Assembly (NCBI GenBank): GCA_016183815.1
Contig: JACPDW010000008.1
Location: 124,001 to 188,000 of the forward strand
Origin: Flavobacteriia bacterium
Lineage (GTDB): Bacteria > Bacteroidota > Bacteroidia > Flavobacteriales_D > Crocinitomicaceae
Length of the DNA stretch: 64,000 bases
Reading direction: 5' to 3'
A program made the position numbers and the translations under genes. The notes below the pieces were generated by a model. It saw nothing but the letters and a program-made list of their open reading frames with translations. It was not told the origin of the DNA and ran no database searches. Position 1 is the first letter of the stretch. Each line of letters opens with the position of its first letter. Shown here piece by piece: positions 21,107 to 47,161 of this stretch.

Positions 21107-21130
21107 GGCCTCGTAGTTCAATTGTATAGA
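21107..21130 (+). pseudogene. 5' fragment of tRNA-Arg
   Basis: These 24 bases (starting GGCCTCGTAG) match the 5' end of the tRNA-Arg gene at 31238-31311 with one mismatch (C to T at 21117), covering the acceptor 5' strand and D arm including the unusual U19. The similarity stops in the D stem; no anticodon or T arm follows. It is therefore a truncated tRNA copy in the intergenic region between the deacetylase-like gene and the MATE gene. The rest of 20950-21166 shows nothing else. Confidence 0.7.
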
Positions 21131-31237: not shown

Positions 31238-31311
31238 TGACCTCGGAGGGAGTCTAACCCCCAACCGCTGGAGCCGAAATCCAGTGCTCTATACAATTGA
31301 GCTACGAGGCC
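31238..31311 (-). tRNA. tRNA-Arg (anticodon TCG), with unusual U19-A56
   Basis: On the minus strand, 74 bases fold into a cloverleaf: acceptor GGCCTCG/CGAGGTC (one G-U pair), D stem GCTC/GAGC with loop AATTGTATA, anticodon stem CTGGA/TCCAG with loop TTTCGGC (anticodon TCG), five-base variable loop and T stem GGGGG/CCCTC with loop TTAGACT. The usual G19 and C56 are replaced by U19 and A56, which keeps the tertiary pair complementary. CCA is not encoded. All stems are intact, so the gene is likely functional. Confidence 0.92.
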
Positions 31312-31398
31312 AATATTATTTAATGCAAATTTAGAAAGAAAAAGCAAACTTAATGTATTCTATAAAATAATGGTATTAATTTTACGTTTTTAAGTTTT

Positions 31399-33714
31399 AT
31401 GAAGTTTTTTTTATTTTTCTTTTCTTATTTAATTTTTTATACTCAAATTTTCTCTCAATTAGAAACAGGGTCGTGGAGAATGCACCTTACTCAAAGGGGG
31501 TTTGACATCGCAAGTAACGGGGTAGAAGTGATGATGATCGTAGATAATGGTCTAGTGGAATTTGATCTCAATTACAACGAAATTTCAGAATGGTCGAAAA
31601 CAAATGCCTTATCTGATATTAATCCAAGTTGTATTACTTATGATTCCTATTCTTCTTCATTTTTTGTGGGTTATAAAAATGGTAATATCGATAAAATAAA
31701 AAATGGAGTGGTGACAAATATTCCAGCTATTAAGCTCAGTTCAGTTGGTGGAGACAAAAAAATCAATTGTTTTTATTCTTATAATAAATTACTTTACGCA
31801 GGAACAGGATTTGGTGTCGTCGTAATCAATCCAGATAAAAATGAAGTGAAAGACACGTATTATCCAAATCAAGTTAACCAAGCAGTAAAAGATATTGTAG
31901 TGCTTGAAAATCAAATCATTGTATTGCAAAAAGATAAGGCGAAATCGGCAAACGTTAATCAGTTTAATTTAATCGATTATCAACAATGGTCGGATTACAA
32001 TTTGCTACCCGAATTAGGCACAGAACACGAATACAAAAATATTCTTTCTTGGAACAATCGATTGTATGTGTTAAAAAACAATGATGCTTATGCACAAGAT
32101 TCAGTATTTGAAATCACTAACAATGGACTGATCAATCAAATTAATTTAACTTTTGGTCTTGAAATAAACAGTATTCAGTTGATGAACGACAAAATGTATG
32201 TGAATATTACTTATGGAGGTGTTTTTGTTTTTAATCAAAATTTCGATTTAGTTGAAACAAAATACTTAAGTAATACTTACATTAACAAATCTACTATGGT
32301 TCAAGATAGATTGTTTTCTGCTGATGAAAATTTATCTATGCTTGAGTTTACTGATGGAAATGTATTTTTTCATACACATACTGCTTGTCCAAGAAATACT
32401 TTTTATTCTTTGACTGCTGGAAAGAAGAAAATGATAGTCTCAGGTGGTGCATACCTCGGCTCATCATTAAGTGCTTTTAATGGAGATGGATTTTACGTGT
32501 TTGAAGAGGAAAGATGGACGCATATTTATAGAGAAAATCAGAAATTATGGAAAAACAAACTCATCTTTGATGTGTTAAAAGTGGCTATAAATCCGAATAA
32601 TGAAAATCAAATGGCTGTTGGTTCCTATTGTGAATATCCATTGGCTTTAATAAATGATGGAAAAAATATCGATCAAATTTTTCACATGGACAGTAGCATT
32701 TTGGTTGAAGTAAATGTGAATAATGGAAAAGCATGTATTTCAGATTTATTATACGACGATAATGGAAATTTGTGGATTATTCATTCTTTTTCCAAAAGAC
32801 CACTTAAAGTACTTACATCAGATAATCAATGGATTGATTTTGATTTAGGGAATAACATCATCGATAAAATGGGAGGAGAGATACTCATTGATGACAATGG
32901 ATTAAAGTGGTTTACTATCCATCAAAAGGGAATAACTGTGTTTGATGATAAAGGGACGTTAGATGATGTCACTGATGATGAATACAAACAAATTAATGAC
33001 GGTGCAAATTCAGGTGCTTTGCCAAGTAATACTGTAACTTCTATTGTTATGGATAAAAATAATGAGTTATGGATTGGAACATCAGAAGGATTTGCTATTT
33101 TAAATAATACTTCAGGTATAATGGATGCACTACCTGGTGAATATAATGCAAACCGTATAAAGTTGGAATATGAGGGTAATGTAGAATTTTTATTAGGAAA
33201 TACCTATATCAATGACATTGAAGTAGATGGTGGGAATAGAAAATGGATTGCTACTGCAAATTCAGGATTATTTTTGTTAAGTCCTTCTGGAAATGAAATT
33301 TTAGCTTCTTACACAAATTCTAACAGTCCTTTAATTTCAAATACTATTTTAGATATTTGTTTCCAAGCTGAATCGGGAGAATTATTTATTGTAACTGATT
33401 TGGGATTAGTCTCGCTTAGAACTGATGCATCTGAAGGTAAATCTGATTTTAAAGAAGTAGCTATTTTTCCCAACCCTGTTTTACCTGATTTTGATGGGGT
33501 AATAACTGTTCAAGGAATGATGGAAAATTCTGATGTTAAATTTACAGATGCAGCAGGAAATTTAGTTTATCAAACTACCTCTATGGGTGGAACTGCTATT
33601 TGGAGCGGAAAAAATTGGAAAAATGAAAAAGTTGCTCCAGGTACTTATTTTGTTTGGATGTCTTCTAACACAGAGAAAGGTAGAAAAGTTGGAAAAGTAG
33701 TTATAATAAATTAA
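31399..33714 (+). CDS. porZ: Type IX secretion system protein PorZ
   Basis: PorZ is a surface component of the T9SS attachment complex that, in Porphyromonas gingivalis, delivers anionic LPS to cargo. The 771-residue protein has a signal peptide (to FSQ), the N-terminal signature LETGSWRMHLTQ, two seven-bladed propeller regions (blades such as LWIIHSFS, LWIGTSEGFAILNN, KWIATANSGLFLL) and a C-terminal domain with IFPNPVLPDF and YFVWMSS, itself a T9SS tail. The length matches known PorZ (about 770 residues). recO starts 6 bases later, so the two are co-transcribed. It processes or anchors the many T9SS cargo proteins encoded in this window. Confidence 0.9.
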   Translation: MKFFLFFFSYLIFYTQIFSQLETGSWRMHLTQRGFDIASNGVEVMMIVDNGLVEFDLNYNEISEWSKTNALSDINPSCITYDSYSSSFFVGYKNGNIDKIKNGVVTNIPAIKLSSVGGDKKINCFYSYNKLLYAGTGFGVVVINPDKNEVKDTYYPNQVNQAVKDIVVLENQIIVLQKDKAKSANVNQFNLIDYQQWSDYNLLPELGTEHEYKNILSWNNRLYVLKNNDAYAQDSVFEITNNGLINQINLTFGLEINSIQLMNDKMYVNITYGGVFVFNQNFDLVETKYLSNTYINKSTMVQDRLFSADENLSMLEFTDGNVFFHTHTACPRNTFYSLTAGKKKMIVSGGAYLGSSLSAFNGDGFYVFEEERWTHIYRENQKLWKNKLIFDVLKVAINPNNENQMAVGSYCEYPLALINDGKNIDQIFHMDSSILVEVNVNNGKACISDLLYDDNGNLWIIHSFSKRPLKVLTSDNQWIDFDLGNNIIDKMGGEILIDDNGLKWFTIHQKGITVFDDKGTLDDVTDDEYKQINDGANSGALPSNTVTSIVMDKNNELWIGTSEGFAILNNTSGIMDALPGEYNANRIKLEYEGNVEFLLGNTYINDIEVDGGNRKWIATANSGLFLLSPSGNEILASYTNSNSPLISNTILDICFQAESGELFIVTDLGLVSLRTDASEGKSDFKEVAIFPNPVLPDFDGVITVQGMMENSDVKFTDAAGNLVYQTTSMGGTAIWSGKNWKNEKVAPGTYFVWMSSNTEKGRKVGKVVIIN

Positions 33715-46493: not shown

Positions 46494-46654
46494 TAAAGTT
46501 GAATATTTACCCTTTGTGTTATTTTACGTAATATTTTTTATTAAAATTACGTTTTTTCACGTAGAAATAAGTCAATTGAAGTGCCTAATTTTGATTTAAA
46601 TAAAGGCGGAATCCGAAAAGCCTTATGAGTAGGAAAAACTAAATCTTTATTATT

Positions 46655-47161
46655 ATGAAAAAAACAATCTTTATTTTCGCCTTGATTGGCCTAGCTTTAG
46701 TTTCTTGTAAAAAGAAGGACAAAGATCCAGAACCTGAACCAGAGCCGACTCCTACTAATTACAATCTTACCTACATGGTTGATGGTGTTACAATTAATTG
46801 TACTGATGGAAAAGGAACTGCAGATGGTTGGTTTACAATTGACGGAAAAGACGTTAATAATCCAACTACACGTTATTTTAGAATTATACTTCCTTTGTAT
46901 GATTCGATTAAAGTTACAACTTATTATCTTGCAGAACACCCTGAATATCCTAAAGCAACTGCATATTATTTAGACTACATGCTTACTGGAGAAAATGAGT
47001 TTGAATCAAAAGATGGAAGTCCCACAACAGATAAAATAACAATAACCAAATTTGATAAAACTGCAAAAAAGATTTCTGGAACTTTTAATTTTTCTTTAGA
47101 AGATGATAATGGAGCAAAAAAAGTTTTTACTAACGGTACGTTTACAGATTTAACCTGGTAA
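46655..47161 (+). CDS. Putative lipoprotein of unknown function
   Basis: The 168-residue protein has a lipobox (ALVSCKKKDKD, lipid-attached Cys18) and a Pro/Glu-rich linker (DPEPEPEPTPT). A compact beta-rich domain follows, with NYNLTYMVDGVTINC at the start and ISGTFNFSLEDDNGAKKVFT near the end, where ISGTFNF and the closing GTFTDL are common in Bacteroidota lipoproteins of the DUF6252 kind. It is expected at the outer membrane. It ends before a strong terminator (47183-47213), so it is a single-gene unit. Confidence 0.75.
   Translation: MKKTIFIFALIGLALVSCKKKDKDPEPEPEPTPTNYNLTYMVDGVTINCTDGKGTADGWFTIDGKDVNNPTTRYFRIILPLYDSIKVTTYYLAEHPEYPKATAYYLDYMLTGENEFESKDGSPTTDKITITKFDKTAKKISGTFNFSLEDDNGAKKVFTNGTFTDLTW

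Follow-up and report, generated by a model that had tools for sequence, protein, structure and literature searches.

The question raised by this locus is whether a tRNA-Arg(TCG) gene carrying U19 and A56 in place of G19-C56 is a decaying copy, a tRNA put to another use, or a working elongator tRNA whose elbow is closed by a different pair. Reviews describe G19-C56 as invariant or highly conserved, the exceptions being mitochondrial, Pyl and similar tRNAs (PMC4810234 and PMC7609411 among the sources). In known structures bases 19 and 56 form a Watson-Crick pair at the surface of the elbow and offer a flat docking face to the ribosome and to several RNAs and proteins (PMC4810234). The gene lies in the stretch of 64,000 nucleotides that was analysed (the window), and its features are as follows:

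31238..31311, reverse strand: tRNA-Arg(TCG) gene, 74 nt (ARAGORN, Rfam RF00005 and direct reading)
31275-31277, reverse strand: anticodon TCG
31294, reverse strand: G18 (sequence)
31293, reverse strand: U19 in the D loop, partner of A56 (sequence and covariation)
31292, reverse strand: A20, the main arginine identity base, kept (invariant in the alignment)
31255, reverse strand: A56, at the third position of the T loop, opposite U19 (sequence and covariation)

ARAGORN and Rfam agreed on a tRNA-Arg(TCG) at 31238-31311 of the reverse strand, and the match to RF00005 was full-length (model positions 1-71) and scored 62.6 bits against a gathering score of 29. The gene reads GGCCTCG TA GCTC AATTGTATA GAGC A CTGGA TTTCGGC TCCAG CGGTT GGGGG TTAGACT CCCTC CGAGGTC A, and the 3' CCA is absent from the DNA. 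An earlier, sequence-only reading of the window had reported U19 and A56 in this gene and had called all of its stems intact; direct reading of the 9 nt D loop (AATTGTATA), the T loop (TTAGACT) and the stems (4/4 paired) bore out both statements. G18 and U54-U55 are kept and 15-48 is A-U, so that the G18-psi55 half of the canonical elbow has its bases while the identities G19 and C56 are missing from the other half. The two bases found there are nevertheless Watson-Crick complementary, and relatives back this pairing by covariation. The arginine identity bases A20, C35, G36 and A73 are all present, A20 being the one read by ArgRS in the D loop (PMC9976931), and the NCG anticodon, A20 and discriminator A73 place the gene among the CGN-reading tRNA-Arg.

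The window's family, the Crocinitomicaceae, was sampled with 60 genomes, which gave 97 CGN-type tRNA-Arg genes, one of them added from a search of the wider order. Positions 19 and 56 were complementary (A19-U56 or U19-A56) in 96 of the 97, and none of the 97 had G-C. The tRNA-Arg(ACG) genes comprised 41 with A-U, 6 with U-A and 1 with A/C, and the tRNA-Arg(TCG) genes 26 with A-U and 23 with U-A. The sole exception, A19/C56, belongs to the tRNA-Arg(ACG) of genome G016 (L037) and may represent a state of recent origin or an intermediate resembling a wobble pair; a close relative, G050, has A-U at the same place. All 49 of the TCG genes were paired, and when the T-loop base was shuffled among them the number of paired genes reached at most 41 in 100,000 trials, a test that takes no account of relatedness. 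Mapped onto a maximum-likelihood ArgRS tree, the TCG pair state required 8 changes, 7 of which were forced by well-supported branches; A-U and U-A have thus replaced each other at least 7-8 times on this tree. Both states occur even within single genera, including the window's own (U-A in G000 and G003, A-U in G004). The ArgRS of the window's genome (L243) sits on a long branch in this tree (1.11 changes per column), with a best identity of about 62% to the sampled family, and the ArgRS of G041 has a long branch likewise.

Beyond the family, other families of the order have both G-C and A-U, and many families of Bacteroidia still have G-C in their CGN tRNA-Arg, so that the class is a patchwork of the two. 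A scan of 109 genomes of the class, using a 9-nt D-loop frame in which position 19 was free and position 56 was anything but C, found 47 tRNAs without C56, every one of them complementary at position 19 (47/47). In the phylum sample, non-G19 CGN tRNA-Arg was present in 55 genomes, namely 2 of the window's family and 53 of the 70 others of its class, and in none of the 223 genomes of the phylum's other classes, as judged with a pattern in the Bacteroidia / E. coli-like frame, which genes in other frames would escape. A collection of 84,980 species genomes, scanned for any non-G19 combined with any non-C56, yielded at least 119 loci; among the matches listed, the 117 loci with complete genes all had A-U or U-A (117/117), and all 80 titles were Bacteroidota. 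C19-G56 was not seen in any sample scanned. The sequence-only reading had taken the double substitution for a compensated change rather than decay and had proposed a comparison with relatives; in that comparison positions 19 and 56 had changed together in many genes of relatives, and their covariation extended to CGN tRNA-Arg across the class Bacteroidia. Judged from these sequences, the exchange of G19-C56 for a matched A-U or U-A pair is a recurrent trait of CGN-reading tRNA-Arg in Bacteroidia and is not peculiar to the window's gene.

Covariation statistics were also calculated. Over 127 distinct full-length genes the normalised mutual information of 19-56 was 0.914, which ranks it among the stem pairs. 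An alignment of 29 sequences, picked to span the states, had A-U in 12, U-A in 10, G-C in 6 and no pair in 1, counts that consequently do not stand for frequencies. Across the cloverleaf together with 15-48 and 19-56, 99.9% of the cells in this alignment were standard pairs, 500 of 500 shuffles and all slides of the whole structure scored below the real one, and the helix pairs of the window's tRNA-Arg(TCG) were backed by covariation in its relatives.

The explanation that we prefer, and hold to be very probable, is that the gene encodes a working, single-copy elongator tRNA-Arg whose elbow has an isosteric Watson-Crick pair under pairwise selection, and that it is neither a product of decay nor a new type of RNA. 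It starts from what was observed, namely the sequence itself, the covariation, the repeated switches, the single-copy status and the conserved locus beside porZ. Under this explanation tRNA-Arg(UCG) would read CGG and CGA with an elbow closed by U19-A56 instead of G19-C56, and in CGN tRNA-Arg of Bacteroidia 19-56 would evolve like a helix pair, G-C giving way to A-U, A-U and U-A then replacing each other many times, and unpaired states being removed by selection. G-C is presumably the ancestral state and the substitutions mostly neutral compensatory changes, A-U and U-A being in all likelihood isosteric with G-C and thus able to keep the shape of the elbow. We infer that the U19-A56 pair forms in the folded tRNA and turns a flat face to its elbow partners, the ribosome and RNase P among them, much as G19-C56 does, and that the gene yields a charged tRNA in the cell. 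Two points tell against this explanation. Neutral compensation leaves the hot spot in CGN tRNA-Arg, as against the G19-C56 of tRNA-Arg(TCT), unaccounted for, and a change from A-U to U-A needs a mismatched or a double step, which makes the number of switches surprising for a purely passive process.

Compared with a canonical class I elongator such as the E. coli tRNA-Arg(ACG), the window's tRNA shares the cloverleaf, A20, C35, G36, A73, G18, U54-U55, G57, A58 and the R15-Y48 Levitt pair; it differs in having U-A at 19-56 where the canonical tRNA has G-C, and its sister ACG has A-U. In tRNA-Pyl and the metazoan mitochondrial tRNAs without G19-C56, the canonical contact between D and T loops is missing or rebuilt (PMC7609411). 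All of these lack G19 and C56, as the window's tRNA-Arg does, but in the latter the dimensions stay canonical and the pair is exchanged for another. Eukaryotic tRNA-Ala has unusual tertiary pairs at 15/48 and 54/58 with purine-purine changes (PMC7566577), which likewise amount to isoacceptor-specific variation of tertiary pairs found by comparative analysis, although they involve other pairs, occur in eukaryotes only and are purine-purine rather than the Watson-Crick swaps seen here. A published report of the Bacteroidia swap at 19-56 was not found in the open literature that was searched. The flat face of G19-C56 is the dock for the ribosome, RNase P and T-box RNAs, and the repeated exchange of G-C for A-U or U-A in needed tRNAs of Bacteroidia provides a test, set up by nature, of whether partners of the elbow recognise its shape or its bases; it suggests that what natural elbows require is a correctly shaped pair and not particular bases. 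The homologues form a ready series (G-C, A-U, U-A and one mismatched A/C) for assays of structure, decoding and modification, C56 being a known determinant for some T-loop enzymes. Holding G19 and C56 constant, as some tRNA models and designs of orthogonal tRNAs do, is too strict.

Of the alternatives, the one that survives best is an adaptive, isoacceptor-specific A-U/U-A elbow: selection would favour a weaker or differently shaped elbow in CGN tRNA-Arg, for instance one that tunes recognition by ArgRS, a tRNA-modifying enzyme or the decoding of CGN codons. The swap is indeed concentrated, with 45 of the 47 non-C56 tRNAs of the class sample being Arg (ACG, TCG or CCG) and the other 2 Gly(TCC), and ArgRS relies on A20 of the D loop, immediately beside the pair (PMC9976931). 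Within the window's genome at least 29 tRNA matches were read by ARAGORN with their neighbours (a lower bound, the family search having scored part of the candidates), and two of them lacked G19-C56, the TCG gene with U19-A56 and its sister tRNA-Arg(ACG) on contig C14 with A19-U56, while tRNA-Arg(TCT) kept G19-C56. In the family, moreover, ACG has U-A solely in genomes where TCG also has U-A (6/6). Against an adaptive elbow, the genome has one copy of argS, and this one ArgRS must charge G-C (TCT), A-U (ACG) and U-A (TCG) in the same cell; no ArgRS residue tracked the switch in the TCG pair, the best alignment column reaching 72% against a base rate of 53%; the CGN tRNA-Arg of many Bacteroidia families retained G-C; and the change is also seen in certain Gly(TCC) and Ser(CGA) tRNAs. 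We consider such tuning unlikely, and because one ArgRS serves all three pair types and no ArgRS column follows the pair, compensatory evolution is preferred. A broader form of the idea, that Bacteroidia freed 19-56 in CGN tRNA-Arg because some component of their decoding, modification or RNA-surveillance apparatus handles the elbow of these tRNAs in a different way, whether by reading it or by ignoring it, A-U and U-A being functionally distinct and selected, also seems to us unlikely.

In two families a tRNA-Gly(TCC) with an 8-nt D loop has A19-U56, and one tRNA-Ser(CGA) has this pair too, which extends the swap beyond arginine (loci L163, L170 and L086; genomes G450, G458, G608 and G565). 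Many further matches of an 8-nt D-loop scan were rejected as canonical tRNAs in a shifted register, with G18-G19 one base earlier; only Gly(TCC) was real. The rarity of CGN codons was considered as a reason for the swap and is weakened by A19-U56 in multi-copy ACG genes, of which G450 has three.

The change at the elbow might instead mark a tRNA specialised for a role outside translation. Staphylococcal non-proteinogenic tRNA-Gly, used for peptidoglycan, departs from the conservation of G18-G19 and T-psi-C, with the contacts lost, and by analogy with such tRNAs, which also deviate at D- and T-loop bases, the window's gene could be suspected of the same. Both deviate at the elbow, but the window's tRNA-Arg preserves the pairing, G18 and U55, and much of the class has an A-U pair in the ACG tRNA too. 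A loose pattern for any NCG anticodon, run over the whole genome (100% complete), found ACG and TCG only, with no tRNA-Arg(CCG), so under standard wobble rules CGG can be read by tRNA-Arg(TCG) alone. CGG is rare but used (5 of the 17,748 codons of the window's open reading frames, with 42 for CGA), and the gene is probably essential. A non-translational role is thus, in our judgement, very unlikely.

That the gene is a pseudogene or decaying copy, with a canonical tRNA-Arg(TCG) doing the work elsewhere, appears more improbable still. The non-textbook U19 and A56 and a truncated 5' copy nearby might suggest it; but the stems are unbroken, the constraint on 19-56 is retained as complementarity, and the second, canonical gene that the sequence-only reading had named as grounds for giving up its view was absent from the assembly, the loose NCG pattern finding ACG as the only other gene. 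The surroundings of the gene are listed here.

31399..33714, forward strand: porZ, coding for type IX secretion protein PorZ and divergent from the tRNA (NCBIfam T9SS_PorZ, 490 bits)
31326..31333, reverse strand: TAAATTTG, putative -7 promoter box (sequence match; the tRNA 5' end lies 14 nt downstream)
21107..21130, forward strand: lone copy of bases 1-24 of the tRNA gene (sequence match)

The locus beside porZ is conserved, which also argues against decay, porZ adjoining tRNA-Arg(TCG) in many relatives with all three states of 19-56 (G-C, A-U and U-A), and the substitutions thus took place at an orthologous locus and not through replacement by a foreign tRNA. As far as gene order in these genomes can tell, porZ is a marker of the ancestral site of the tRNA gene. 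An assembly or sequencing error has negligible probability, since the same pair recurs in many independent genomes, isolates included, and no support for an error was found.

The truncated copy at 21107-21130, which the earlier reading had noted as sharing U19, is real. It matches the tRNA 5' end in 23 of 24 bases, U19 included and with one change in the D stem, where the number of matches expected by chance is none. No anticodon or T arm follows it and ARAGORN calls no tRNA there, which rules it out as a second tRNA gene. The tRNA is 10 kb away and on the other strand; the fragment is flanked by genes for a MATE transporter and a VimE-like deacetylase. An inversion that split it from the tRNA was rejected, since the tRNA stands at its ancestral place beside porZ, and a hairpin like those of relatives is not supported at the fragment, whose fold was no better than those of shuffles (z 0.37). 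It is possibly the relic of a 5' duplication akin to repeats seen in the Flavobacteriaceae. In several members of that family the interval between promoter and tRNA-Arg contains tandem units of about 50-128 nt, each opening with the tRNA gene's initial 12-22 nt; such units were found upstream of tRNA-Arg at L008, L010, L014, L007 and L034, and single units at L006 and L033. They look like leader repeats of the tRNA 5' arm, and the three units tested folded into hairpins better than shuffles did (z -2.9 to -4.0).

The -7 promoter box of Bacteroidetes has the consensus TAnnTTTG, and boxes related to the TAAATTTG of the window precede the tRNA-Arg genes of several relatives. Elsewhere in the window, a DUF805b RNA motif (RF02914, 40.9 bits) lies at 46603-46635 on the forward strand, just upstream of an open reading frame at 46655.
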